Positions 1,015-21,072 of a DNA stretch of 21,155 nt are shown here, in pieces. Each line of letters opens with the position of its first letter. Within the stretch, counting starts at the first letter, position 1. The stretch spans positions 1 through 21,155 of IMG/VR virus record IMGVR_UViG_3300030085_003577; one strand, 5' to 3'. The position numbers and the translations under genes are program-made. This DNA is from a virus. The notes under the pieces are model-generated. The model was not told the DNA's origin. It made no database searches and worked only from the letters and a program-made list of their open reading frames with translations.

Positions 1015-2952
1015 ATGACTGTATCAATTAGTACAGTAGGATTTAACACTGGTAATGCTGGAACTTGGACCCCAAATGACATCATCACTTGTATTGGTGA
1101 AGCACTTTCACTACAGGAACTTCATGGAAGCACCACCGATTCTGGATTGATTTGTGGTATAGCAACTTACAGTGGAGATAATACGATTCCTTCTGAAGTT
1201 AATATTAGATATCTTGACGTTAGGGGTACTTCTAGTGGATTGGGCACTGACGCTAGTTTCGATGTTATGAGAAATGCATCTGGTCAAACTTATGGTGTAT
1301 ATGTAAACAGACCTGGTGTTGGTTACACTGGAGGAGAAGTAGTTACTATTTCTGCAGAAGATATCGGTGGTGCATCTAACGGTGCATCTGATATGACATT
1401 TCAAGTTATAGTTGATGCTAATATTTCTAATGGTGTTTCTTATGCTGTAACAGTAACTGGAACATATTTAAATTATACTGCTGAGGGTTGGGACAGAAAT
1501 GGTTATCAAGGTCCTGGTACGGACAGAACTTTTACTTTTATGGAAGGAGATAGTATAAAATTTCATAATACTATTGTTGATGAAGCTTCAACGTATGATG
1601 CGTATACTCTGACTCATAGACAAAATAAGATGTGGGCAGAAATTGATAAGGTTGTTAGTTTTTATACAGCAGTGGGTTCTGGAACAAGTATTACTTGGAC
1701 TCCGAACTGGGGAGAACGTGGAACGTATTATTGGAATAAATTCCAGTATGTGAACCAAGAACATGTTCATACGATTGTTATTCAACCAGCAGATAGTGCA
1801 AATGTTACTTCCGTAAGTTATGGATCTACCACTGCTTTTTATGATGTTGCCGATGAAGGAAATGCTGCAGTTTGGAAACAAGAACTCGACTCATCTAAAA
1901 CATATGGAAATAATTATTGGTACATCTATGCTGATACCAGTGGTAATGTACATTGTGCAGGTGGTAATGGTTATCATCCAACAGATCATCAAACCAGATT
2001 TCCAGCATGGTTCCAGCCTGGCGCTAGTAATCCAGCGCCAGAAGCAGGAAGTTCTGTGTATACTGTTTGGGGCCATGCGTTTGGACCAAGATCTTCTAGG
2101 GGTAGCAAAGAGTTAGATCTTTGGAATGGTTGGGCTACTGTAGATCAGAACATACACAATAATATCAACAATCCGGCCTCTGTACTACAGAACAATGCAT
2201 GGACTACATTTACTGAAGTACCTATAGGTAGAAGTTCATATGAAGTAAATCTTAGAATGTGGAAGTCTGGACTTGATCCAAGTTTTGTTGTATTTTCTTG
2301 GTATTATCCAACACTATCTTCTTCAACTATTCAGGATAATGGCGGAAGGACTTGGTGGTGGCATAACTATACAACAACTTTATTTGATCTTGATTATGTG
2401 CAGAACGCATCTGTTACACATATAAGTCGAGATGCAGCGAATGGTAATACTGCTGCTAAAATAAGATTTGAAACTCCTACCAATACCACTAATTATAATT
2501 ATAGAAATGCACTGAGAGGATACTGTAATATTGGTGCAGGAATACAAATTTTGAAAGATTATTATGCACCAATGACAGTAGATGATGCTCCTGTAGATTA
2601 TGATTCTAGACTTCTTTATAGACCTGCTACTTCGGATTATTATTATACTGCTAGAAGTACAAATGTCGGCAACACACTATTCAAAGGTCCCACTATCAGT
2701 AACAACGCGGCTACAAATAATATTATAAAGAATATACCTACTTGCTCTAAGATGGTTCCGTGCCCATATTACTTACCAGATGACTTTGCGTTATTTACTT
2801 TTGATTACAATGCAATAAGTGCAAATATCAATCAGGGAGATACCATTACCGTTAGTGGTAGTGAAGTTTGGCAAGTTATTGACGGATCTTATTGTACTAA
2901 TGAGGGTTCATCTAGAACTTCTGGTATTATATTCTGCGCGAGGATAGTATAA
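1015..2952 (+). CDS. Large virion structural protein, copy 1 of a tandem pair (645 aa)
   Basis: The ATG at 1015 has a strong ribosome site (GGAGG at 1002-1006, 8 nt spacing) and follows the preceding stop by 3 nt, so it is probably translationally coupled. The protein is acidic, aromatic and Asn/Ser/Thr-rich, with no signal peptide or membrane segment, like phage tail or baseplate components. It is a clear paralogue of the 653-aa protein at 3208-5169. Blocks shared in the same order are GTWTP near the start, VNRPG[VI]GY[TS]GGEVVTISAED at about residues 97-118, WGERGTY at about 232, VSYGSTT, GYHPTDH, the SG[LI]DP[SN]FVVF region, and CPYYLPDDFAL at about 583 followed by SGSEVW and VIDGSY. I do not recognise a T4 gene-numbered equivalent; a structural role is inferred from composition and position between fibre genes. 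Confidence 0.8.
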   Translation: MTVSISTVGFNTGNAGTWTPNDIITCIGEALSLQELHGSTTDSGLICGIATYSGDNTIPSEVNIRYLDVRGTSSGLGTDASFDVMRNASGQTYGVYVNRPGVGYTGGEVVTISAEDIGGASNGASDMTFQVIVDANISNGVSYAVTVTGTYLNYTAEGWDRNGYQGPGTDRTFTFMEGDSIKFHNTIVDEASTYDAYTLTHRQNKMWAEIDKVVSFYTAVGSGTSITWTPNWGERGTYYWNKFQYVNQEHVHTIVIQPADSANVTSVSYGSTTAFYDVADEGNAAVWKQELDSSKTYGNNYWYIYADTSGNVHCAGGNGYHPTDHQTRFPAWFQPGASNPAPEAGSSVYTVWGHAFGPRSSRGSKELDLWNGWATVDQNIHNNINNPASVLQNNAWTTFTEVPIGRSSYEVNLRMWKSGLDPSFVVFSWYYPTLSSSTIQDNGGRTWWWHNYTTTLFDLDYVQNASVTHISRDAANGNTAAKIRFETPTNTTNYNYRNALRGYCNIGAGIQILKDYYAPMTVDDAPVDYDSRLLYRPATSDYYYTARSTNVGNTLFKGPTISNNAATNNIIKNIPTCSKMVPCPYYLPDDFALFTFDYNAISANINQGDTITVSGSEVWQVIDGSYCTNEGSSRTSGIIFCARIV

Positions 2953-3182
2953 TGACTGATTGGTCTATTCCAAATTTAGGAACAGTTATTGATGGTTATC
3001 CAGAACTCAATGGAGAATTGGGATCTAGTCTTTTATCTGCAACTATCTCAGTCACAAATGGCACCATCGGTGTTGGCGATTTAATACTGACAGCCAAACT
3101 TGGTGGATATGAAAACGTTAGAAGTATCCCAGCAGAAGAACCTGGAAGACCTCATGTTGGTCAAGTCTATCCACATCCATAA
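2952..3182 (+). CDS. Small partner protein of copy 1 (76 aa)
   Basis: It starts at an ATG sharing one base with the upstream TAA (TAATG), with AGGA at 2941-2944 as a likely ribosome site, so translation is coupled to the 645-aa gene. The N-terminus (MTDWSIPNLGT) and C-terminus (EPGRPHVGQVYPHP) match those of the 80-aa protein at 5169-5411 (MADWVFPGL and EPTRPYNGQMYPRF), while the middle is diverged. No signal peptide, membrane segment or known motif is seen. Strict pairing with the large protein in both copies suggests the two act together, for example as subunits of one virion part; this is inference. The TAA stop lies inside the late promoter motif of the next transcription unit. Confidence 0.75.
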   Translation: MTDWSIPNLGTVIDGYPELNGELGSSLLSATISVTNGTIGVGDLILTAKLGGYENVRSIPAEEPGRPHVGQVYPHP

Positions 3183-3207: not shown

Positions 3208-5169
3208 ATGGCAATAAGCACTTATGTTGTCGGAATCAATACGGCAAATGCTGGGACCTGGACTCCCGAAGATGCCTTATATGCAATTGGTGTTGGTCTA
3301 AGTTGGGCGCAGATGCATGGGTCGCCAGTAAGTGGACTAGTTGTTGGTGTTTCTAGTATTAGTGGTGGCGGTGCAGTTGATGCGGCAAATGATAATCACT
3401 ATAAAGATGTAAAACCTGTTAGCACTACTGGTGTTGGAACTGGTGCAAGTTTTTGGATTGAGAGGGAGAGTAATCTCAGTGGACAAATACACAGTATCAT
3501 CGTAAACAGACCTGGTATTGGATATAGTGGAGGAGAAGTAGTCACTATTTCTGCAGAAGATATTGGTGGTGCAGCCAACGGTGCATCTGATGTTACTCTC
3601 AGATTAATTGTTGATGCTAACATACCTGTTGGTGCTTCTTATGCAGTAACTGCAAGAGATTCTGGTGGCAACAATCACGTTAGTGAAGGTCGTGATATTA
3701 ATGGATATCAGGGAATTAGTTCTGGATTAACTTATACAATCTATGAAGGTGATACTTTAGAGTTTACTAATTCTACTGGTTCTGAAGGTTCTAGTTATGA
3801 TGATTATTATTTAACAAATAAGTACGTAGCATCATTTCCAGCTGATCAAGATAAAGTAACCACTTTTGGTATCACTGGACTTGGTAATGGTGAAACTAGA
3901 AGTTGGACACCAAAGTGGGGAGAACGTGGAACTTATTGGTTAACCAGACAATATTATTCTCATGAAAATGTAGAAGAATCGATTATAATTAATGTCTTGC
4001 AAAGAGACTCTGCTGGAATCACTAGCGTAAGTTATGGATCCACTACAGAGTTTATGAATTATAGTACTTATTCATATGGAACTGCAGTTTGGAAACAAGA
4101 CATCAATCCAAACAAATATTTTGGAACTACATATCATTTTCTATCATTCGATAGTTCATATAACTTATACTGTGCTCAGACTAGTGGATATCATCCAACA
4201 GACCACGCTACATGTTTCCCCAACTGGGCATCTAATGGAGATCCAAGCAATTCTGTAGAATATAGTGGGCACAAAGGACAATCAACTAGATCCGCTGGAA
4301 ATCAAGAACTTGATTTAATTAACGGAAGTTATGATATTAACAACAATGCTAGCAGTTATAGATACGGATGGTTAAGTAATAATACTTCCTCATGGACATA
4401 TTCAAACAGTATTCAAACACTTTGTCAACTTAATACCAGTTATACAACTTTTGAACTTAGATTGAGAGTGTGGAGATCGGGTATTGATCCTAACTTTGTA
4501 GTATTTGGATTTGATTATCCTACAGTTTCCTCATCAAATATAGATGACAATACAACGACAACTTGGTTCTGGCATCATTTTGAGTCCAATGTTTTTGATT
4601 TGGATCATGTCTTCTTAGGGGGTTCTACTGATATTTCAAGGTTTGGTACTTATGACCATACTAGTAGCAATCAACCTTACATGCAATTTAATACTCATTT
4701 AGAACCAAGCAGTTGGGGTAAGAGAGCTGCACTTCGTGGATATGGGTCCTATTCTACTGGCACTGATATAACCTACGATAGATATAAACCCACCATTGTA
4801 ATGAAAAGTGCTCAAGAAGATAGTATGGATTCTAGAATGTACTTTAGACCCGAATCTGGACTGCTTCGTTATGAGACCTTCATGACAGATGACACCACAA
4901 GAGTTCATGATAAGATTGATGATTCGGTAGCTTCTAATAACATTATCAAGAATCTACCTTTGAATACTAGGTTAATGCCTTGCCCCTATTATCTACCAGA
5001 TGATTTTGCACTTATGCAATTTGAGTACAACCAAATATATGCAAACATCCAAAGAGGTGATAGGGTAACTATTAGTGGTAGTGAAGTCTGGGAAGTTATT
5101 GACGGATCATATGATGTAAACGAAGAATCTAGAACTACTGGAATTTTATTCTGCGGGAGGGTAGTCTGA
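3208..5169 (+). CDS. Large virion structural protein, copy 2 of a tandem pair (653 aa)
   Basis: This is the paralogue of the 645-aa protein at 1015-2952. Shared blocks include GTWTPED near residue 20, VNRPGIGYSGGEVVTISAED from about residue 99, WGERGTY at about 237, GYHPTDH, GIDPNFVVF and CPYYLPDDFAL at about 592, with SGSEVWEVIDGSY close to the end. Composition is again Asn/Ser/Thr/Tyr-rich with no signal peptide or membrane segment, as expected for a tail or baseplate protein. Unlike copy 1 it has its own late promoter motif just upstream (3178-3185) and only a weak ribosome site (AGAAGAG at 3188-3194), so the two copies may be made in different amounts. No T4 counterpart is recognised. It ends in TGA overlapping the next ATG by one base. 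Confidence 0.8.
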   Translation: MAISTYVVGINTANAGTWTPEDALYAIGVGLSWAQMHGSPVSGLVVGVSSISGGGAVDAANDNHYKDVKPVSTTGVGTGASFWIERESNLSGQIHSIIVNRPGIGYSGGEVVTISAEDIGGAANGASDVTLRLIVDANIPVGASYAVTARDSGGNNHVSEGRDINGYQGISSGLTYTIYEGDTLEFTNSTGSEGSSYDDYYLTNKYVASFPADQDKVTTFGITGLGNGETRSWTPKWGERGTYWLTRQYYSHENVEESIIINVLQRDSAGITSVSYGSTTEFMNYSTYSYGTAVWKQDINPNKYFGTTYHFLSFDSSYNLYCAQTSGYHPTDHATCFPNWASNGDPSNSVEYSGHKGQSTRSAGNQELDLINGSYDINNNASSYRYGWLSNNTSSWTYSNSIQTLCQLNTSYTTFELRLRVWRSGIDPNFVVFGFDYPTVSSSNIDDNTTTTWFWHHFESNVFDLDHVFLGGSTDISRFGTYDHTSSNQPYMQFNTHLEPSSWGKRAALRGYGSYSTGTDITYDRYKPTIVMKSAQEDSMDSRMYFRPESGLLRYETFMTDDTTRVHDKIDDSVASNNIIKNLPLNTRLMPCPYYLPDDFALMQFEYNQIYANIQRGDRVTISGSEVWEVIDGSYDVNEESRTTGILFCGRVV

Positions 5170-5411
5170 TGGCTGATTGGGTTTTTCCTGGATTGCAAGC
5201 GTCAGTTGATGGATCTGTAGAAAATCTAGAGTTTGGATCTGCAGTTCCATATCCAACAGATATTGGTTATACAGTTTATCCCACATATGAAGATTTCCAA
5301 GGTGGTGAAAGATACACCGACTTTTGGTTGAGTAAGAATATGAAGATTGTTTCTGCTGTTGAACCTACAAGACCATACAATGGTCAGATGTACCCGAGGT
5401 TTAACAACTAA
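5169..5411 (+). CDS. Small partner protein of copy 2 (80 aa)
   Basis: The ATG shares one base with the preceding TGA (TGATG) and has a strong ribosome site, GGGAGGG at 5155-5161, 7 nt upstream. The ends resemble the 76-aa protein at 2952-3182: an N-terminal M-x-D-W and a C-terminal EP-x-RP-x-x-GQ-x-YP. The middle is rich in aromatic and acidic residues and differs from the other copy. It has no membrane segment or catalytic motif. A role as a small structural partner or chaperone of the preceding large protein is inferred from the conserved pairing. Confidence 0.75.
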   Translation: MADWVFPGLQASVDGSVENLEFGSAVPYPTDIGYTVYPTYEDFQGGERYTDFWLSKNMKIVSAVEPTRPYNGQMYPRFNN

Positions 5412-14874: not shown

Positions 14875-14903
14875 TTGACTTCTTAGGTACTTTCAACTAT
14901 TAT
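14875..14903 (+). promoter_or_regulatory. Sigma70-type (early) promoter before the porin-like gene
   Basis: TTGACT (14875-14880) and TATTAT (14898-14903) each match 5 of 6 bases of the bacterial -35 and -10 consensus and are separated by exactly 17 nt. This sits in the only long intergenic region (14857-15007) and points at the porin-like gene. The -10 element overlaps a T4-type late motif. Confidence 0.6.
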
Positions 14904-14908
14904 AAATA
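14901..14908 (+). promoter_or_regulatory. T4-type late promoter motif (TATAAATA)
   Basis: This is an exact late promoter core, beginning inside the -10 hexamer of the sigma70-type promoter at 14875-14903. Transcripts would start near 14914 and carry a leader of about 95 nt before the ATG at 15008. Confidence 0.65.
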
Positions 14909-15007
14909 AGTGATCGAGACAAAGTGTTTCGATTTGTAACAGACTCATGTCGAGAGTCTTCACATCTGCGGGTAATCATTCCGCAAGTAACTAAGAGGTA
15001 TTAACAA
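14909..15007 (+). promoter_or_regulatory. Structured 5' leader of the porin-like gene
   Basis: Three successive hairpins can be drawn. Arms 14913-14920 and 14926-14933 give 8 pairs including one G-U, loop AAAGT. Arms 14941-14946 and 14954-14959 give AGACTC/GAGTCT, 7-nt loop. Arms 14967-14971 and 14981-14985 give TGCGG/CCGCA, 9-nt loop. The ribosome site AAGAGG (14993-14998) lies 9 nt before the ATG and outside the hairpins. No known riboswitch is recognised; the structures may stabilise the mRNA or tune its translation. Confidence 0.45.
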
Positions 15008-15379
15008 ATGATCAAATCTGTATTCGCAGCAACCGCTGCTCTGTCTATGTCCGCTGGTGCTGCTTTTGCAGGACCCTACGTAAACGTGGAAACCAATGCT
15101 GGTTGGACGGGATCGGACTACTCTGGAGCAACGACTGATCTCCACGTAGGCTACGAAGGTGCTATCGGTGAGACTGGTGCTTCCTTCTATGTTCAAGGCG
15201 GCCCTGCTTTCGTTGCTGCTGATGGTGCTGATACTGAGACCGTTTTCTCTGGTAAAGCAGGCGTTGGAGTTCCTGTCAGCGATGCACTTGGTATCTATGG
15301 TGAAGTTTCCTTCGCAACTGGTATCGATGATGCAGATACTGGTTATGGCGGAAAGCTGGGTGTTAAGTACAACTTCTGA
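15008..15379 (+). CDS. Small porin-like outer-membrane protein with signal peptide (123 aa)
   Basis: Residues 1-21 are a classic Sec signal peptide (MIKSV, a hydrophobic Ala-rich core, AFA before the cut), leaving a mature protein of about 102 residues. The mature part alternates Gly, aromatic and small residues in amphipathic strands (YVNVETNAGW, ASFYVQGGPAF, GIYGEVSFATG) and ends GGKLGVKYNF; a C-terminal Phe is the usual outer-membrane beta-barrel signal. About six strands fit, few for a barrel, so it may oligomerise or be periplasmic. From memory, small porin-like proteins occur in T4-like cyanophages. The start is set by AAGAGG 9 nt upstream. It has its own promoters and terminator. In a 120-base sample (15061-15180) I count 65 G/C, against 25 of 60 at 14401-14460, so it stands out in composition and may be host-derived. 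Confidence 0.7.
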   Translation: MIKSVFAATAALSMSAGAAFAGPYVNVETNAGWTGSDYSGATTDLHVGYEGAIGETGASFYVQGGPAFVAADGADTETVFSGKAGVGVPVSDALGIYGEVSFATGIDDADTGYGGKLGVKYNF

Positions 15380-15428: not shown

Positions 15429-15617
15429 ATGCAGAAAATTTTATTTCATCCAGTCACGATCATAAATATAATGATCTGTGGATCTCTTGGTGTGATTGAA
15501 TATATTCATACCAGAGCACATCACACCCTAGAGACAGATGTCCATGGACATGTTTACAGAGCACTACAAAAAAATCCAGAGTTAGCACGTTCTGCTTGTT
15601 GGGAGTTAGATGAATGA
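15429..15617 (+). CDS. Small membrane protein, unknown function (62 aa)
   Basis: The frame opens with ATG at 15429, immediately after the terminator T-tract, with no Shine-Dalgarno possible there; a second ATG at 15471 would drop most of the hydrophobic stretch. Residues about 8-26 (PVTIINIMICGSLGVIEYI) form one likely membrane or signal-anchor segment, followed by a short polar His-containing tail (HTRAHHTLETD). It overlaps the next gene by ATGA at 15614-15617, which supports it being translated as part of the cluster. I do not recognise a family. A late-promoter-like CATAAATA at 15461-15468 lies inside the frame, so late transcripts from it would not include the first ATG. Confidence 0.55.
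   Translation: MQKILFHPVTIINIMICGSLGVIEYIHTRAHHTLETDVHGHVYRALQKNPELARSACWELDE
15461..15468 (+). promoter_or_regulatory. Possible T4-type late promoter motif (CATAAATA)
   Basis: CATAAATA is the same sequence as at 3178 and 17381, but here it lies within the start of the 62-aa frame rather than in a gap. It could drive the downstream cluster (coiled coil, cupin and later genes) past the terminator at 15406-15428. Its position inside a coding frame lowers confidence. Confidence 0.4.
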
Positions 15618-15739
15618 AGAAAAAAGAACGGATTGAAGTTCTAGAACGACGAATAGGCGAGATGGAAGAAGAAAATATGAAATTACTTGTTCGTATTGCT
15701 AAACTTGAAGGGCAGTTGGAGAATCACGAACATGAGTGA
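15614..15739 (+). CDS. Short coiled-coil protein (41 aa)
   Basis: This very short gene is supported by three points: an ATG in a 4-nt ATGA overlap with the upstream stop, a strong ribosome site GGGAG at 15601-15605 with 8-nt spacing, and a stop that overlaps the next ATG by 8 nt (15732-15739). The product begins MKKKERIEVLERRIGEMEEE and continues as a charged amphipathic helix with hydrophobic residues at roughly heptad spacing (I7, L10, I14, M17, then L24, I27 and L31), ending in a His/Glu tail. The pattern recalls SlyX-like short coiled coils. It probably dimerises; its partner is unknown. Confidence 0.7.
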   Translation: MKKKERIEVLERRIGEMEEENMKLLVRIAKLEGQLENHEHE

Positions 15740-16205
15740 AGTTAATTTCAAGAAACACCGAGTCTTCCGTGAGACAGACTCAGTTATTTTTTATGATATT
15801 TCTGTAGAAAATTCAAATGCATCTGATCTGGTCGTGCATGATGGACCTGCAATATCTCCACCAGATGATGTAATCGGAGCAAAACAGTTCTATATACATC
15901 ATCACCAAACAGATCACAATCGTGTTCTCTCTGGTGTCCGCACCTTTGAATTAATTAATCCTGGTTGGAAATATCCATATCATATTGTGCATCTTAACAG
16001 ATCTTCTGGGGCTCTCGTCATCCCAGTAGGTACTTACCATAGAAGTATCTCGGGTGACAATGGATCTATTGTGATCAATCAAGCCATTCGTGACGATGAG
16101 TTCAATTCAGAAACAGAATTTATTCCTGTATCTGCTGGACAAAACGCTGAACTTTATGGTATACTGGCCCATGAAAAGCCAGTTATTCACACGCTTGGAG
16201 AATAA
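15732..16205 (+). CDS. Cupin-fold protein, possibly of the sugar-ketoisomerase-like type (157 aa)
   Basis: The ATG at 15732 is chosen over the in-frame ATG at 15687 because it overlaps the coiled-coil stop and has GGAG at 15718-15721, 10 nt upstream. Cupin motif 1 is visible as HHH at residues 56-58 with H62 and G68, and motif 2 as PVGTYH at 98-103, so likely metal ligands are present. The segment from LVIPVGTYHRS to AIRDDEF resembles the end of WxcM/FdtA-type dTDP-sugar ketoisomerases (IPPG..., then a 'YIRDY..F' tail), but the acidic and His pattern is not decisive. It could also be a non-enzymatic sugar-binding cupin. No signal peptide. It lies in the small-gene cluster, with the next gene starting 1 nt after its stop. 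Confidence 0.6.
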   Translation: MSEVNFKKHRVFRETDSVIFYDISVENSNASDLVVHDGPAISPPDDVIGAKQFYIHHHQTDHNRVLSGVRTFELINPGWKYPYHIVHLNRSSGALVIPVGTYHRSISGDNGSIVINQAIRDDEFNSETEFIPVSAGQNAELYGILAHEKPVIHTLGE

Positions 16206-16206
16206 A

Positions 16207-16491
16207 ATGTCTGAATTCCCAAAAGACTGGAGGTATGCAGACGACAGAATGCAAATGAGAGCAGCAGTATTTCGTGCTCTCAGTCACCATCTAAATGACC
16301 ATTGTCGTGCAGTATATGAGTTTTGTCATGACTGGGTAAGTCAAGGCAACAATCACACCAACAACATTGAACATCATTTTCAAACCTATTTGAAGGAGAC
16401 CCATCGTGAGAAAGTTTATCAACTGGAAAAATGTCTTGAGATCGAGCCTGGCTGGTATGCTCCTGACAACAACTCCAGCACTGGCACATGA
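16207..16491 (+). CDS. Hypothetical protein, unknown function (94 aa)
   Basis: The ATG at 16207 has TTGGAG at 16195-16200, 6 nt upstream, and lies 1 nt after the cupin stop, which makes it far better than the in-frame ATG further up at 16090. The product is helical, soluble-looking and rich in His, Asn, Trp and Tyr, with the stretch LSHHLNDHCRAVYEFCHDW near residues 25-43 that could bind a metal through His/Cys, though no known motif is matched. Its last 86 nt (16406-16491) also encode the start of the HExxH protein in another frame. No family is recognised. Confidence 0.65.
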   Translation: MSEFPKDWRYADDRMQMRAAVFRALSHHLNDHCRAVYEFCHDWVSQGNNHTNNIEHHFQTYLKETHREKVYQLEKCLEIEPGWYAPDNNSSTGT

Positions 16492-17101
16492 AAAAGATAA
16501 ATTAAAGTATGGGTACAACACTATGGATTCCATGGGTTGTATGATACTTAGGGAATGCACCGATGGAGTCGAAGAGATCACTAGTCTTTTGGATATTTCT
16601 AGTAACTATGATGATCCTACTCGTTTTACTCCCGTTGCTAACGAGTTCAACCGAATGCTCACTTCTCTTAGGCAGGTCGGAGTTAAGGTGTTTCTAGCAC
16701 CAGCAAAGTATTTTCCGATTGGACATAGGGGTGTTTATCATACTGTGAGCAACACCTTCTTTTTGAACAAAAGGCATATGGGATATCCTGGCACATTGAT
16801 GTCAGTGATGCGTCACGAAGGTTGGCACGCTGCTCAGGATTGCATGGCAGGCACCATTGATAATAGTATGATTGCTATCATCATGCCTGAGGAGGATGTT
16901 CCTGAATTGTGGCAGGAGATGGTAGAACGTACCTATCCCAAAGCATCATGGCCTTGGGAGAAAGAAGCGACCTGGGCAGGCAAGACTGAAGGTATGACTG
17001 AGAAAGCACTTGCTTCTTGTGCTGCTGGTGATATGTGGAAGGTTTACAAACCCACCCCTCTTACGTTAGAATGGTTGCGTGAAAACAACTTCGTCAACTG
17101 A
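16406..17101 (+). CDS. Secreted HExxH metallopeptidase-like protein (231 aa)
   Basis: The start is GTG at 16406, supported by GAAGGAG at 16392-16398 with 7-nt spacing, and because it supplies a complete signal peptide: basic MRKFINWKNVLR, a hydrophobic core, and ALA before residue 28. A zinc-binding HExxH motif is present as HEGWH at residues 137-141, preceded by SVMR and followed by AAQDC; E187 in the segment KEATWAGK is a plausible third ligand 46 residues on. Two Cys pairs are possible (C45, C51, C146, C205). The family is not certain; similar 'HE.WH..QDC' proteins are, from memory, frequent in cyanophages. Export suggests action on periplasmic or cell-wall protein, perhaps in lysis or envelope change. 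Its first 86 nt overlap the upstream gene. Confidence 0.65.
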   Translation: MRKFINWKNVLRSSLAGMLLTTTPALAHEKDKLKYGYNTMDSMGCMILRECTDGVEEITSLLDISSNYDDPTRFTPVANEFNRMLTSLRQVGVKVFLAPAKYFPIGHRGVYHTVSNTFFLNKRHMGYPGTLMSVMRHEGWHAAQDCMAGTIDNSMIAIIMPEEDVPELWQEMVERTYPKASWPWEKEATWAGKTEGMTEKALASCAAGDMWKVYKPTPLTLEWLRENNFVN

Positions 17102-17385
17102 TGGTACGGACTCAAAAGGCTCTCGAAAAAAACGTCAAGACTCTGAACAAGAAGACTACGACTGCCAAGAAACCTCGTAAGACTAAGAAAGAAACTAACA
17201 AGTTCGTTTGTACTCAGTCCAAAGAAGAAAAACTTTTTCCACATCATCAAACGTTTCCGTATCGACTTGAAGACAAACGAGAGGGTAAGACATGTTGGTT
17301 TCAATGTGAAGAACATGTAATCAAGTATGTAACCCGATACAACATGTCTTCAAAAGAGTACAAATGCCAGGTTTTTAATCCATAA
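17101..17385 (+). CDS. Small Lys-rich, Cys-containing protein (94 aa)
   Basis: It starts at ATG 17101, sharing one base with the preceding TGA, which implies coupled translation. The first 35 residues are strongly basic (KKTTTAKKPRKTKKETNK), fitting nucleic-acid contact. The C-terminal half holds four cysteines (in FVCTQS, KTCWFQCEEH and YKCQVF) and His residues, which could form a small zinc site, and the 'C.F.C..H' spacing is suggestive. No known family is recognised. Its TAA stop (17383-17385) is nested in the late promoter motif of the next gene. Confidence 0.65.
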   Translation: MVRTQKALEKNVKTLNKKTTTAKKPRKTKKETNKFVCTQSKEEKLFPHHQTFPYRLEDKREGKTCWFQCEEHVIKYVTRYNMSSKEYKCQVFNP

Positions 17386-17388
17386 ATA
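17381..17388 (+). promoter_or_regulatory. T4-type late promoter motif (CATAAATA)
   Basis: It has the same sequence as the site at 3178 and again contains the upstream TAA stop. It lies 21 nt before the ATG at 17410 in the only gap of this part of the cluster, so it likely drives the holin-like gene and those after it. Confidence 0.6.
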
Positions 17389-17409
17389 CAACTGCCCTGC
17401 TCTCTATGG

Positions 17410-17718
17410 ATGGCTGATACAAAGCCCAAAGTAGAAGAGAAGGACCAAGATGAAGATAAAAGTGAAGTCCTTGGTAATCTGGTGAAAGTTGTTGTCCTTA
17501 TATGGTCCGCATCTCTTCTCACGTTCTCATACGTAAGACTTCCAAACGGTCAAAAAATTCTTGATTTTGACCCTACCTTTATCGCATCTGTGTTTTCTGG
17601 CTCTCTGGCTGCATTTGGACTCTCTCCGGCTAAGTCTGGTGGAAATGGTAATGGTGCTGCTAAGAAAAAGAGAGACGAGGAACCACCTGTTGTTTCGGCA
17701 GTTGAACCTAAAAAATGA
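17410..17718 (+). CDS. Holin-like small membrane protein (102 aa)
   Basis: It has an acidic/basic soluble N-terminus (about 22 residues), a first hydrophobic segment at about 24-42 (LVKVVVLIWSASLLTFSYV), a second at about 57-71 (FIASVFSGSLAAFGL), then a glycine-rich linker and a charged tail (AAKKKRDEE). Size, two membrane spans and a highly charged C-terminus fit class II holins, which open the inner membrane at lysis. That is a topology-based guess; no holin family motif was identified. It follows a late promoter motif after only 21 nt and lacks a clear Shine-Dalgarno. It overlaps the next gene by ATGA. A secreted HExxH protein lies two genes upstream. Confidence 0.55.
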   Translation: MADTKPKVEEKDQDEDKSEVLGNLVKVVVLIWSASLLTFSYVRLPNGQKILDFDPTFIASVFSGSLAAFGLSPAKSGGNGNGAAKKKRDEEPPVVSAVEPKK

Positions 17719-17915
17719 ATCTAGTCTTAAGACCACTTGATAATATCAATGATCCTACATGGAGTGTCATCATTAGTTTGGTGATACTCCTTTTTTTTGT
17801 AGCTTTTAACATATATATTATTATGAAATTAGCTTTTGAGGAGTTAGAAGATGGGAGCGATGACACCCCCAAGTCGGAAGAGTTGTTACAACTTCCGAGT
17901 GACGAAAATAAATAG
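17715..17915 (+). CDS. Single-pass membrane protein with acidic tail (66 aa)
   Basis: It begins in a 4-nt ATGA overlap with the holin-like gene. Residues about 15-41 are a long hydrophobic span (WSVIISLVILLFFVAFNIYI then IMKLAF), followed by an acidic cytosol-type tail (EELEDGSDDTPKSEE). The pairing with the holin-like gene suggests a partner or regulator of it, such as an antiholin or spanin-like piece, but nothing in the sequence proves this. The final 65 nt overlap the start of the nuclease gene. Confidence 0.65.
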   Translation: MNLVLRPLDNINDPTWSVIISLVILLFFVAFNIYIIMKLAFEELEDGSDDTPKSEELLQLPSDENK

Positions 17916-18309
17916 AGTCGTTGATGGCGATACGATCGATGTCACGATTGATCTCGGTTTTGACCTTTATAAAAAAGAGAGAGTTAGAGTTGCTGGTGTG
18001 GACACGCCAGAAAAACGCACAAGAGACCTAGAGGAGAAAGCCCTTGGAATCGACGCAACAAACTGGCTCAAAGAAAGACTGGAATCGGCTATCCGTGGTG
18101 ATGATGATCTTGTCATTAGGACTGAGCTTGTTGGCGGTGTCGGGAAGTATGGTCGTCTTCTTGGTTGGTTATACATCGGGGACGCAGATGTGTCCCTCAA
18201 CGAAGAAATGATCACCGAAGGATATGCATGGGCATACGACGGTGGTACAAAACAGAAAAACTTTGAAGAACTAAGAGAAATTCGTCGTACCAAAGGTACG
18301 TTAGTATAA
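17851..18309 (+). CDS. Thermonuclease (SNase)-family nuclease (152 aa)
   Basis: The start at ATG 17851 has GAGGAG at 17838-17843, 7 nt upstream. All catalytic positions of staphylococcal nuclease are recognisable: DGDT (D27 matching D21), R46 and D51-T52-P-E54 in RVRVAGVDTPE (matching R35, D40, T41, E43), and R102 in KYGRLLGWLY (matching R87). Length is normal for the family. The enzyme should be a calcium-dependent phosphodiesterase cutting DNA and RNA. There is no clear signal peptide, so it may act in the cytoplasm (host DNA breakdown or nucleotide scavenging) or be released at lysis. It starts 65 nt inside the upstream membrane-protein gene and its stop shares one base with the next ATG. 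Confidence 0.85.
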   Translation: MGAMTPPSRKSCYNFRVTKINRVVDGDTIDVTIDLGFDLYKKERVRVAGVDTPEKRTRDLEEKALGIDATNWLKERLESAIRGDDDLVIRTELVGGVGKYGRLLGWLYIGDADVSLNEEMITEGYAWAYDGGTKQKNFEELREIRRTKGTLV

Positions 18310-18557
18310 TGCAAAAAGTAATTAATTTTATGGCAGTCTTCAGTTTTATTGGAGTTGCTAGTCTCACTGGAATGGGTATCTACATTGAACTCAACAGAGA
18401 TAAACTCGCTGAAGAGTACAAACAAAAAGTTATAGGATACATTACTGACCTTGTTTCAGAGGAATTGCCAGGTATGGTGGACGGGCTTATTCCCGATGTT
18501 ACATCGCCAGAAATGCCAGTTCCAACAACAACTGGACCTGCTATTAAACTACCATGA
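18309..18557 (+). CDS. Small N-terminally anchored membrane protein (82 aa)
   Basis: The ATG at 18309 shares one base with the nuclease TAA. Residues about 4-28 are a hydrophobic signal anchor (VINFMAVFSFIGVASLTGMG), followed by a short helical region (NRDKLAEEYKQKVIGYITDL) and a Pro/Thr-rich tail ending in IKLP. No lipoprotein Cys or catalytic motif is present. A hairpin (18286-18300) covers part of its possible ribosome site. No family is recognised; the topology is that of a periplasm-facing anchored peptide. Confidence 0.65.
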   Translation: MQKVINFMAVFSFIGVASLTGMGIYIELNRDKLAEEYKQKVIGYITDLVSEELPGMVDGLIPDVTSPEMPVPTTTGPAIKLP

Positions 18558-19192
18558 TATTCAAGAAAACCAAGGAACAAAACAACACACAACTAGAACC
18601 TACGGAGGTAAAGACTATGAAACCTATGAAATGGTTTATCGTTACTGTTGGAGGGATCGTTGGTGTTGCTCACCTTGGTATTCTTGGACATTTAATTAAA
18701 CCCCAACCCTCTCTACAACAACCACCAGCATTTAATATTCCCCATGGTCCTTACTCGTCTTATAAAATTAAGGCAGGTAAAGATGGATATACAATTGAAT
18801 ATCGTGCAAATGATCCTAAAGTTCTAGAATCATCTAGAACTCATGCTTCCGATAAGAATAAGAAAGGACTCTTCGGTGGCGGTACAGAAATGCGTCGAGA
18901 GACTCGTTATGATCAGTACACCATGGAAGGAGTCCGTAATATGGGTTCAGGAGGTGCCGTGGCAGACGGTGAGGGAAAGAGTGCAAAAGACATCGAGTGC
19001 ATCGTGGCGGACGCTGGAGCGCGGTCACAAGGTGCAATGGCAGGTAGTGCGATCACAACAGGTTTAGTTGCTCCTGCTGTCATGAACATCCCTTACATCG
19101 GATGGTTAGCTGCAGGATGGGCAACTCTCCTTGGTAATCAAGTTGGAGAATCTATTGGATCCGAAGTTGGTAGTGTGTTTAATGATTGTTAA
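18554..19192 (+). CDS. Membrane-anchored glycine-rich protein, unknown function (212 aa, or 191 from the inner start)
   Basis: Two starts are credible. ATG 18554 overlaps the upstream stop by 4 nt (ATGA) but has no good ribosome site. ATG 18617 has GGAGG at 18604-18608 with 8-nt spacing and would place the hydrophobic anchor (KWFIVTVGGIVGVAHLGILG) right at the N-terminus, so it may be the main start. The middle is soluble (HGPYSSYKIKAGKDGYTIEY, then a basic Gly-rich stretch GLFGGGTEMRRETRYDQYT). The C-terminus has a long Gly/Ala-rich hydrophobic region (MAGSAITTGLVAPAVMNIPY then IGWLAAGWATLLGNQVGESIGSEVG cut by small residues) that resembles glycine-zipper membrane segments. Function is unknown; membrane insertion by oligomerisation is a guess. 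Confidence 0.65.
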   Translation: MIFKKTKEQNNTQLEPTEVKTMKPMKWFIVTVGGIVGVAHLGILGHLIKPQPSLQQPPAFNIPHGPYSSYKIKAGKDGYTIEYRANDPKVLESSRTHASDKNKKGLFGGGTEMRRETRYDQYTMEGVRNMGSGGAVADGEGKSAKDIECIVADAGARSQGAMAGSAITTGLVAPAVMNIPYIGWLAAGWATLLGNQVGESIGSEVGSVFNDC

Positions 19193-19971
19193 TGGATATT
19201 CCTATTATTAGTGGTATAGATGTTGATATAAAAGACATCCGTATCAATGAAATTAATACTTATCGATATACTGCACCATCTTTACCAGTTGCTCCACCCG
19301 TAACTGTTGAGATTGGTTTGCCTATTGTAGACATCCCTGGGTGTGTGGAGGCGCATGAACAAAACACCAACAGGGAACGAAGTGGTGTTCTATCCGAGGA
19401 TGATCCTAAAGGCGTAAAGACTTATTGTGATGCTGGAATTCCTTCATTTAATCCTCTAGATTACAATAAAGATAAACTAAAGTTTCAACAAGAAGCTCCA
19501 GTACCACCAGTTGCGCCACCACCTGATACAGATACAGAAGTACCAAAAGCAAAAGGGACAAATCCTCCACCACCAAAGTGTCCTAGTAGAGAACAGGAAT
19601 TATTAAATCCCGTAGGAAAGATCCTAGAGGGTAATAAAAAGGTTACTGGTTATGAATTGGTAGGTAAGAAATGTCTGATGGTAACAGAACAACTTACTAT
19701 ACCCGATCAGATTGTTGTCAATATTCCTAATGCAGGAAAGGTAACTGCTACTGCCTCAATCGCTGTTGTTGCTACAACATCCGCTCTATTAGCAAAACCG
19801 TTGGCAGACTTACTACTGAAAGTAGTCAAACCAACGGTCAAGAAAGTTATTAAAAAGATTGCTGCGATTAGAGGAAAGACTCCTCCTATCGAGTCCGTAA
19901 GGGACCGCCGAGATGAGCAGCGTCAGAGGAGTGCTGCAATTCGGGCATTACGGTTGATGAAGAAGAAGTAA
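19192..19971 (+). CDS. Proline-rich protein with C-terminal hydrophobic segment (259 aa)
   Basis: ATG 19192 shares a base with the upstream TAA; a TTG two codons earlier (19186) is possible but less likely. The N-terminal part includes IPGCVEAHEQN and VKTYCDAGIPSFNPLDY with conserved-looking Cys; a Pro-rich linker (PVPPVAPPPDTDTEVPK) follows near residues 102-118. Beyond it are KKCLMVTEQLTIPDQIVVN and a hydrophobic stretch (TASIAVVATTSALLAKPLAD), then a basic tail (KPTVKKVIKKIAAIRGK and a run of Arg). I recall related proteins in T4-like cyanophages but not a function. The last 86 nt overlap the convergent gene on the other strand. A virion or envelope role is inferred from the neighbours. 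Confidence 0.65.
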   Translation: MDIPIISGIDVDIKDIRINEINTYRYTAPSLPVAPPVTVEIGLPIVDIPGCVEAHEQNTNRERSGVLSEDDPKGVKTYCDAGIPSFNPLDYNKDKLKFQQEAPVPPVAPPPDTDTEVPKAKGTNPPPPKCPSREQELLNPVGKILEGNKKVTGYELVGKKCLMVTEQLTIPDQIVVNIPNAGKVTATASIAVVATTSALLAKPLADLLLKVVKPTVKKVIKKIAAIRGKTPPIESVRDRRDEQRQRSAAIRALRLMKKK

Positions 19972-20794
19972 CAGGATCAATTCGGTGTACATGTGGATGA
20001 CTATGCCCTGGTGGATTGTTCACCATGACATCTGCACATATTTTAGCATACTGTGTGCCAGGTTTAAAGTATATGCCTTTTTTCATTAGTTCGCCACAAT
20101 TCTTGAGTCTCGCGATCTCAAAGTCGAGGCGCTTATTGGCATTTTGTTGACGCATCAATGCAATGTTTGCTGAAGCAGCTTCTTTACAGAGTTCTTGTAA
20201 TTTTTTATCTGTTGGTGTACTCCATGTCATAGAGAAACCAATACCAAGACTATAGTTATCTTTCTGTCCTGTTCTGGTTTTTTTATAGAAACTTACATCC
20301 CCAGGATTATCTAAAACACCATCTCCTATTGGGTTGCCGTCATCATCGAAGGCGCCAAAGTTATCGGTGACATCATACACTGGGTCCATATAATAGGGTT
20401 CATATGGTTTAGATGCTGATGCAGTTCCTGTTACATATGGCGTGAAATTCCTAGTGGGTCCTTGACACTGGATTCCAGACCCATAAGTATTCGTAATATA
20501 GGGGCCTTGTAAAACCTGGATGGCCTGGTTTGTGACGCTGCCAGAACTATTAGCAACAGGAGAAGCGGTAGCACTGACCCCACCAACAGTTTCTGCCAGA
20601 GATTGAGATGGGAGTAACGCACTTAAAATTACTGGGAGAAGATACTTGTAGTGTCTGTTACGCTTGTAACTTCTGTGGTTCTTTGGATAATCGTGTGATT
20701 TTGCAAACCAGGGCCCGAGTATGTTTCTGTGAACTGAAACGCTGCTCCTGGTGTTGTTTGCGTGAACGTTGGTTTGCTTGTTGCACCAGTCCAT
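19886..20794 (-). CDS. Secreted cyanophage-type protein with coiled coil (302 aa)
   Basis: On the minus strand the only usual start codon that gives a complete signal sequence is ATG at 20794, backed by AAGGAG (20810-20805) 10 nt upstream. This yields a 50-residue basic leader (ending KRNRHYK), a hydrophobic core (YLLPVILSALLPSQSLA) and predicted cleavage before ETVGG (residue 68). The mature part has SSGSVTNQAIQVLQGPYITN, then SLGIGFSMTW, then a helical segment (DKKLQELCKEAASANIALMR ... RLDFEIARLKNCGELMKKG) with Cys, and a His-rich PPGHSHPHVH. I recall similar proteins as conserved unknowns in T4-like cyanophages. It overlaps the upstream gene by 166 nt (20629-20794) and the convergent plus-strand gene by 86 nt. 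Confidence 0.65.
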   Translation of the reverse strand: MDWCNKQTNVHANNTRSSVSVHRNILGPWFAKSHDYPKNHRSYKRNRHYKYLLPVILSALLPSQSLAETVGGVSATASPVANSSGSVTNQAIQVLQGPYITNTYGSGIQCQGPTRNFTPYVTGTASASKPYEPYYMDPVYDVTDNFGAFDDDGNPIGDGVLDNPGDVSFYKKTRTGQKDNYSLGIGFSMTWSTPTDKKLQELCKEAASANIALMRQQNANKRLDFEIARLKNCGELMKKGIYFKPGTQYAKICADVMVNNPPGHSHPHVHRIDPVTSSSSTVMPELQHSSDAAHLGGPLRTR

Positions 20795-21072
20795 GATGAT
20801 GTCACTCCTTCAATAGTTACATTGTTACTTCCTGTTCCTGGGGACAGGTTCCCACTTGCTGATACTCCAGATCCTGTTACAGAGTATTGATACCCTGTGG
20901 AGTAGTCCATCGAATTGATGGTTTCCGTAATTGTTTGTGTTGTTTCCGTATGGCTAGTCATTGAGCCCTGGGTGAAGTTTGGCACAACAGGTACGGAATA
21001 TGATGGTTGTGCCAAACCATGAATTACACCAAGAACCAATCCTAGTCCGATTGCCTCTTGTAATCTAGTCAT
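20629..21072 (-). CDS. Secreted Thr/Ser-rich protein, unknown function (147 aa)
   Basis: The ATG at 21072 shares one base with the TGA of the gene before it on the minus strand, so translation is coupled. The N-terminus (MTRLQEAIGLGLVLGVIHGL then AQPSYS) is a signal peptide or anchor. The rest is rich in Thr, Ser and Gly with alternating polar and hydrophobic residues (TETTQTITETINSMD, YQYSVTGSGVSASGNLSPG), suggesting an extended beta structure as in fibre or surface proteins. Its last 166 nt also encode the beginning of the 302-aa gene in another frame. No family is recognised. Position next to another exported protein suggests a shared envelope or virion role. Confidence 0.6.
   Translation of the reverse strand: MTRLQEAIGLGLVLGVIHGLAQPSYSVPVVPNFTQGSMTSHTETTQTITETINSMDYSTGYQYSVTGSGVSASGNLSPGTGSNNVTIEGVTSSWTGATSKPTFTQTTPGAAFQFTETYSGPGLQNHTIIQRTTEVTSVTDTTSIFSQ

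Follow-up and report, generated by a model that had tools for sequence, protein, structure and literature searches.

More than 20 sequenced cyanophages have been classed as lacking identifiable spanin genes, an absence for which a fragile outer membrane of the host has been offered as an explanation, and the locus described here raises the question of whether such viruses carry a lysis cassette of an unrecognised kind. The window, i.e. the whole stretch of 21,155 nucleotides (nt) that was analysed, is the IMG/VR virus record IMGVR_UViG_3300030085_003577; as this record is a genome fragment, the absence of a gene from it is uninformative. Its left part encodes large fibre or structural proteins and its right half resembles cyanomyoviruses, with Synechococcus phage S-SCSM1 (Kyanoviridae) as the nearest relative in the annotated phage collection. 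Judged by these matches, the window is a piece of a T4-like cyanomyovirus (Kyanoviridae), a virus of ocean cyanobacteria. At positions 15429-19971 it holds 11 plus-strand open reading frames (ORFs), almost all abutting or overlapping, which a first-pass annotation had proposed as a lysis or host-takeover module where a secreted HExxH protein replaces or assists a classical endolysin. Here we argue that a conserved core of this region, including the small membrane protein DUF6450, is probably a lysis cassette.

The conserved core and its late-promoter motif

Every ORF of the cluster matches a PHROG in profile searches, and these are thus genes rather than chance ORFs. The cluster itself was recovered as first described, with all named ORFs in place, closely packed and matching phage families. 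Its extent and unity hold in part: the cluster is dense and contains a conserved core, but lineage-specific passengers are mixed in and the unit runs on into two minus-strand genes (19886-20794 and 20629-21072). We take the conserved core to be DUF6450 (17410-17718), the downstream genes of families phrog_568, phrog_605 and phrog_570 (hereafter 568, 605 and 570), and the convergent minus-strand phrog_848 and phrog_650 (848 and 650; Table 1). Searches with Pfam, PHROGs and NCBIfam profiles returned a function for none of the core families.

A hydropathy scan detected hydrophobic segments in six cluster proteins, a single one in each of the 15429 ORF, the phrog_814 (814) protein, 568, 605 and 570, C-terminal in the last. 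In the sixth, DUF6450, helix 1 is clear and the Gly/Ser-rich helix 2 stays under the threshold of 1.4; the P-SSP7 record notes two transmembrane segments (TM) for the homologue. Across myo-, podo- and siphophages, helix 1 keeps W-S and helix 2 keeps DxTFxAS...G.

The arrangement recurs in all three morphotypes. Syn9 and S-CAM22 have the order regA - DUF6450 - 568 - 605 - 570, facing 848 - 650 - 564 on the opposite strand, and the siphophage P-HS2 displays a myophage-like convergent layout, with DUF6450 - 564 - 650 - 848 converging on 570 - 568. The podophages P-SSP2, P-SSP3, P-SSP7, NATL1A-7, KBS-P-1A and MedDCM-S28-C3 instead carry a compact block, 570-like - DUF6450 - 650 - 848, between fibre/horn-like and terminase genes; 848 and 650 are hence present in podophages and P-HS2 as well. 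In T7, the slot between tail fibre and terminase holds the 17.5 holin and the 18.5/18.7 spanins. The P-HS2 homologue is a clear phrog_570 member (E=2e-51) and adjoins 568 there too; the podophage 570-like protein (phrog_9426) is tied to phrog_570 by position and layout (Pro-rich, C-terminal TM, basic tail), the alignment not being significant. As far as tested, 605 occurs in myophages only. Among annotated phage records, DUF6450 matches 442, 848 matches 444 and 570 matches 408; by organism name, the records called Prochlorococcus phage comprise 38, 37 and 27 of these, compared with 4 each for the HExxH protein and the lysozyme considered below.

We then considered expression. NATAAATA is the published late-promoter motif of cyanomyoviruses (PMC2984593), and a late-promoter-like motif, CATAAATA, precedes DUF6450 in the window. 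In relatives, NATAAATA was counted between -60 and -15 of the start over distinct upstream sequences, with the expectation derived from shuffles. Of 103 distinct, though related, sequences upstream of DUF6450, 55 contain it, against 1.7 expected, as do 26 of 50 upstream of 564, the first gene of the convergent operon (1.2 expected). Clustering of the upstream sequences at 70% identity gave 46 clusters for DUF6450, 29 of them with the motif, and 43 for 564, 22 of them with it. The motif ranks first among all letter permutations, and is scarce upstream of other genes (HExxH 1/36, lysozyme 0/30, outer-membrane barrel 0/36, internal genes absent or nearly so). As a control, NATAA[AG]TA lies at most 80 bases upstream of 12 of 30 virion genes in Syn9 and of none of 20 replication or metabolic genes; a Syn9 scan for TATAAAT became informative only once limited to gene upstream regions. 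Late expression of DUF6450 and of the 564 operon would fit these motif counts.

The remaining core proteins are predicted to be membrane-bound or exported. In 568 and 605, an N-terminal TM followed by a periplasmic domain would fit an inner-membrane spanin, whereas the TM of 570 (residues 185-203 by hydropathy) is C-terminal and followed by an amphipathic Lys-rich stretch at the C-terminus. Over 43 sequences of 570, C53 and C81 are invariant and C132 nearly so. Signal-peptide-like N-termini are found on 650, 564 and 848, and none of the window proteins or of several homologues showed a lipobox when their first 45 residues were scanned. The survey of 677 phage genomes by Kongari et al. 2018 lists Syn9, Syn5, Syn1, Syn19, Syn33, S-PM2, P-SSM2, P-SSP7, P60 and others as lacking spanins, and suggests an inner-membrane protein with a C-terminal transmembrane domain as a possible unorthodox i-spanin (PMC6139136). 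The predicted layout of 570 fits this description.

On the minus strand, the first 166 nt of 848 lie within 650, in a different frame (20629-20794). No alternative ATG, GTG or TTG start of 848 exists before residue 66, so that either the long overlap is genuine or translation begins at a rare codon, for example the ATT at 20629, where 650 stops; annotated 848/650 overlaps are similar in Syn9 and S-CAM22. The convergent 570 and 848 share 86 nt at their 3' ends (19886-19971), the overlap in the S-CAM22 annotation being longer, 230 nt.

Endolysin, holin and the HExxH protein

Eleven complete cyanophage genomes (five cyanomyoviruses, five podophages and P-HS2) were searched with nine lysis-related families. 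Phage_lysozyme2 (PF18013) exceeded its curated cut-off in all five cyanomyoviruses, elsewhere in the genome (S-SCSM1 gp231 with 51.3 bits, cut-off 28.2), and four of these five lysozymes have an N-terminal hydrophobic segment. PF18013 was absent from the five podophages and P-HS2. Neither Amidase_2 nor Peptidase_M15_3 matched in any of the 11 genomes, nor did the T7 (PF10746) and T4 (PF11031) holin families. Glucosaminidase and GH24 lysozyme matches were confined to long ORFs in S-SCSM1 and Sf-CH5, and M15_4 and SLT gave weak matches, likewise in long ORFs. Congruent with the first-pass annotation, which saw no classical endolysin in the window, no PF18013 or other lysozyme match was found there. 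As for a canonical endolysin and holin elsewhere, which it had advised looking for, relatives supply a candidate for the former, but the T7 and T4 families supply none for the latter.

The HExxH gene begins with GTG, preceded by a good ribosome-binding site (AGGAG), and the N-terminus of the protein is signal-peptide-like, ending ALA-HE. An alignment of 54 sequences shows no variation in HEGWH (with H137, E138 and H141), E185, E187 or four Cys; the HExxH motif with the downstream E185/E187, either of which could be a zinc ligand, would fit a gluzincin-like zinc metallopeptidase. An AlphaFold model (predicted local distance difference test, pLDDT, 86; predicted template modelling score, pTM, 0.81) is confident outside the signal region. 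Searches of Pfam, PHROGs and NCBIfam matched no known peptidoglycan-peptidase family, and a profile search of PDB sequences returned nothing significant; KaiC matches were dismissed, with E-values of 0.2 or worse and the HExxH part not covered.

Its neighbourhood was assessed in 80 IMG/VR loci, where phrog_4136 (usually directly 5') lies within about 5 kb in 54, DUF6450 in 52 and the PF18013 lysozyme in 34. In three loci (L264, L128 and L251) the lysozyme is contiguous with the whole module, the typical order being lysozyme - gp215-like - 4136 - HExxH - DUF6450 - 605 - 814 - SNase - 570, converging with 848 - 650 - 564. Since relatives carry both proteins, often adjoining, the HExxH protein accompanies the lysozyme rather than replacing it. 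That it is itself the wall-cutting enzyme of this phage we therefore regard as very unlikely, despite its secretion, its HEGWH with conserved Glu and Cys, the proximity of DUF6450 and the lack of a lysozyme in what is merely a 21-kb fragment. The protein matches 366 phage records, apparently all myophage-sized among the matches listed, went undetected in the core-bearing podoviruses and siphovirus, and is almost never headed by the late motif. A contribution of some kind to lysis is conceivable, though we would sooner doubt than assume it.

Several further observations concern these two genes. In Syn9 (24883-29002) psbA-psbD are flanked by the lysozyme and HExxH genes, and in several IMG/VR contigs psbA/psbD stand beside the HExxH gene or the cassette. 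HExxH matches in bacterial assemblies were discarded as independent bacterial relatives, the inspected contigs with psbA or the cassette looking like cyanophage; a 188-kb contig of a Nonlabens xiamenensis assembly (L265, NZ_RMVE01000006.1), which carries the HExxH gene and a psbA 86% identical to that of Syn9, looks like a mis-binned cyanophage genome or a contaminant. In the podophage S-RIP1 (L262) a PF18013-type lysozyme relative, an outer-membrane-protein-like gene and psbA are neighbours, an arrangement also met in some myophages, and the DUF6450 match of this phage is interrupted by a TGA stop. S-SZBM1 (L012, 7064-10897) may have a lysis set of another kind: an RlpA-like DPBB protein and a C39 peptidase are encoded no more than 4 kb from its PF18013 lysozyme.

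The lysis reading and its rivals

In the mechanism we propose, the cluster would serve a T4-like marine cyanophage to disrupt the host envelope and thereby lyse the cell. DUF6450 would be the holin, small, with two helices and produced late in infection; in myophages it would be co-transcribed with the inner-membrane proteins 568, 605 and 570. The convergent operon 564-650-848 would export secreted proteins to the periplasm, and 570 together with these would perform the outer-membrane step done by spanins in other phages. The peptidoglycan would be cut by the separate PF18013 lysozyme with its signal-anchor-like N-terminus, encoded elsewhere or, in relatives, beside the cluster. Finally, the HExxH protein would be an accessory periplasmic peptidase, mainly of Synechococcus-infecting myophages, probably clearing an envelope or peptidoglycan-linked protein. 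What the comparison shows directly is the gene families with their order and linkage, the enrichment of the motif and the conservation of catalytic residues; the holin function of DUF6450, the spanin-like function, the peptidase substrate and the late timing are all steps that we infer.

Because of position, distribution and promoter, lysis is the best reading of the DUF6450/570/650/848 core, and we consider it probable, if by no great measure. Thus the lysis module of the first-pass annotation survives as a set of envelope-directed, probably late proteins with a holin-like two-TM member, and loses the HExxH protein as endolysin as well as the SNase and cupin. A broader proposition is put forward tentatively, namely that a lysis cassette so far unrecognised is common to the three morphotypes, in which a DUF6450 holin works with a novel kind of spanin substitute made up of a C-terminally anchored inner-membrane 570 and secreted 650, 848 and 564, with no lipoprotein.

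The membrane-bound or exported nature of all core proteins would equally suit envelope remodelling or superinfection exclusion, in which the host surface is altered or secondary infection blocked. An outer-membrane barrel gene is often nearby, and the location of DUF6450 after regA in some lineages is compatible with early expression. We nevertheless find such a role unlikely: exclusion genes are expected to be early and patchy, whereas most marine cyanophage records, out of several hundred, contain the core, roughly half of the distinct sequences upstream of the two operons carry the late motif, and the podophage position between fibre and terminase matches that of the T7 lysis genes. Another reading takes 564/650/848 and 570 for virion or tail/horn-associated proteins that serve adsorption or DNA entry. 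It is quite improbable in our view, considering that DUF6450, an integral membrane protein, sits mid-block and that the signal-peptide-like N-termini of 650, 564 and 848 would direct export from the cytoplasm, where virions are assembled; these N-termini likewise argue against cassette proteins confined to the virion, the outcome that the first-pass annotation had named as contrary to its proposal. The podophage block does however lie directly 3' of fibre/horn-like genes, and fibre-like genes stand beside 570-568 in P-HS2. The virion protein list of S-SZBM1 has no bearing on this reading, as that phage lacks the cassette.

Certain observations weigh against the lysis reading itself. DUF6450 has no sequence similarity to named holin families, matching only DUF6450/phrog_721 'unknown function', and a search of the open-access literature turned up no published account of it or of any holin of these phages. 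Neither the five podophages nor P-HS2 matched any of PF01510, PF13539, PF01832, PF18013, PF08291, PF01464 or PF00959. The long N-terminal domain of 570 lacks a signal peptide that would take it into the periplasm, and the orientation of the protein is read from the positive-inside rule only. Moreover, the sequences compared are related and non-independent, which makes the evidence look stronger in the linkage and motif counts than it is. DUF6450 and the HExxH protein are both missing from S-SZBM1, a complete cyanomyovirus that does encode the lysozyme, and the cassette is thus not universal. In Syn9 no late motif precedes any cassette gene and DUF6450 directly follows regA, which would fit earlier expression there; because of the missing motif, the timing of the cassette may vary among lineages.

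Neighbouring genes and likeness to known lysis systems

Table 1. Features of the window, with the core first. aa, amino acids; TM, transmembrane segment.
Feature	Position	Strand	Description and reading	Evidence
CATAAATA	17381..17388	+	Late-promoter-like motif, -29 of DUF6450	Motif search and enrichment in relatives
DUF6450 / phrog_721	17410..17718	+	102 aa, two hydrophobic helices, charged ends; holin candidate	PF20048 E=2.6e-28
phrog_568	18309..18557	+	82 aa, N-terminal TM, 'plasmid stability' in records; inner-membrane partner candidate	phrog_568 E=1e-21
phrog_605	18554..19192	+	212 aa, N-terminal TM, Gly-rich hydrophobic C-terminus; inner-membrane/periplasmic partner candidate	phrog_605 E=5e-85
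phrog_570	19186..19971	+	261 aa, Pro-rich, C-terminal TM, strongly cationic tail; spanin-like candidate	phrog_570 E=4e-104
phrog_848 (Syn9 gp165)	19886..20794	-	Predicted secreted/signal-anchored, 5 Cys	phrog_848 E=1e-141
phrog_650 / DUF6322 (Syn9 gp166)	20629..21072	-	Predicted signal-peptide protein, Thr/Ser-rich	phrog_650 E=9e-66; PF19847 E=5e-42
phrog_591 HExxH protein	16406..17101	+	231 aa, secreted, predicted periplasmic zinc peptidase; putative accessory	phrog_591 E=3e-114
phrog_4136	16207..16491	+	94 aa, overlaps HExxH gene by 86 nt	phrog_4136 E=8e-20; 54/80 HExxH loci
phrog_1609-like	17101..17385	+	Basic protein, 94 aa	PHROG match; 8/80 HExxH loci
phrog_814	17715..17915	+	One TM; probable passenger	PHROG match
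SNase-like nuclease	17851..18309	+	Probable passenger	PF00565 E=6e-12; phrog_452 E=5e-74
Cupin-like (phrog_9052 'hemagglutinin')	15735..16205	+	Apparent passenger	ATG start; open TTG also at 15687
phrog_2587	15429..15617	+	One TM; passenger or neighbour of the outer-membrane barrel	Adjacent to the barrel gene in 7 loci
Outer-membrane beta-barrel PF24653 (cyanophage)	15008..15379	+	Context gene	E=5e-50; 32/80 HExxH loci

The SNase and the cupin, counted as part of the module in the first-pass annotation, look like passengers when loci are compared. By reading, the catalytic residues of the SNase are indeed complete, as claimed. The 814-SNase pair changes place: some contigs have it between DUF6450 and 570, others beyond 650 and on the opposite strand. 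Neither SNase nor cupin was detected at the podo- and siphovirus cassette loci. Fusion of the SNase to the 814 membrane segment in relatives was rejected, no upstream in-frame TM being found in 56 loci. The cupin was assigned by reading, with no Pfam match, and its gene occurs upstream of DUF6450 within 5 kb in 2 of 80 loci. The phrog_1609-like gene is a linker between HExxH and DUF6450 in some relatives.

Upstream, TATAAATA is found at 14901-15007, 107 bases ahead of the outer-membrane barrel gene (15008), a placement that suggests a late promoter with a long leader. Towards the left end, two large proteins of 645 and 653 amino acids (1015-2952 and 3208-5169), with no PHROG match at E<=0.01, are each followed by a small one (2952-3182 and 5169-5411); by eye, these pairs look like a tandem duplication.

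Compared with known systems, the cassette shares with T7 17.5 and 18.5/18.7 the slot between tail fibre and large terminase, in T7-like cyanophages, and the succession of a small membrane protein and exported proteins with the endolysin gene elsewhere. It differs in lacking a PF10746 match and, among the proteins examined, a lipobox protein, in the C-terminal TM of 570 and in the two convergent operons of myophages. Rz/Rz1-like two-component spanins likewise combine inner-membrane protein(s) with an exported partner and feature a large out-of-phase overlap, as between 848 and 650; here, however, there is no lipoprotein partner and both overlapping products are exported. The N-terminal hydrophobic segment of four of the five myophage PF18013 lysozymes recalls signal-arrest-release (SAR) or signal-anchor endolysins, and DUF6450, small and with a Gly/Ser-rich second of two helices, recalls in its sequence features the accompanying pinholins; no such lysozyme is encoded in this window. 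Disruptin-like proteins are membrane-active cationic lysis proteins, to which the amphipathic Lys-rich end of 570 bears resemblance; 570 is far larger and has a TM segment.

Cyanophages lyse the ocean's most abundant photosynthetic cells, and the cassette is the best current candidate for host bursting in marine cyanophages listed as spanin-less. A gene set common to myo-, podo- and siphophages, placed in the T7 lysis slot and headed by a late motif, would thus provide named genes for direct testing.

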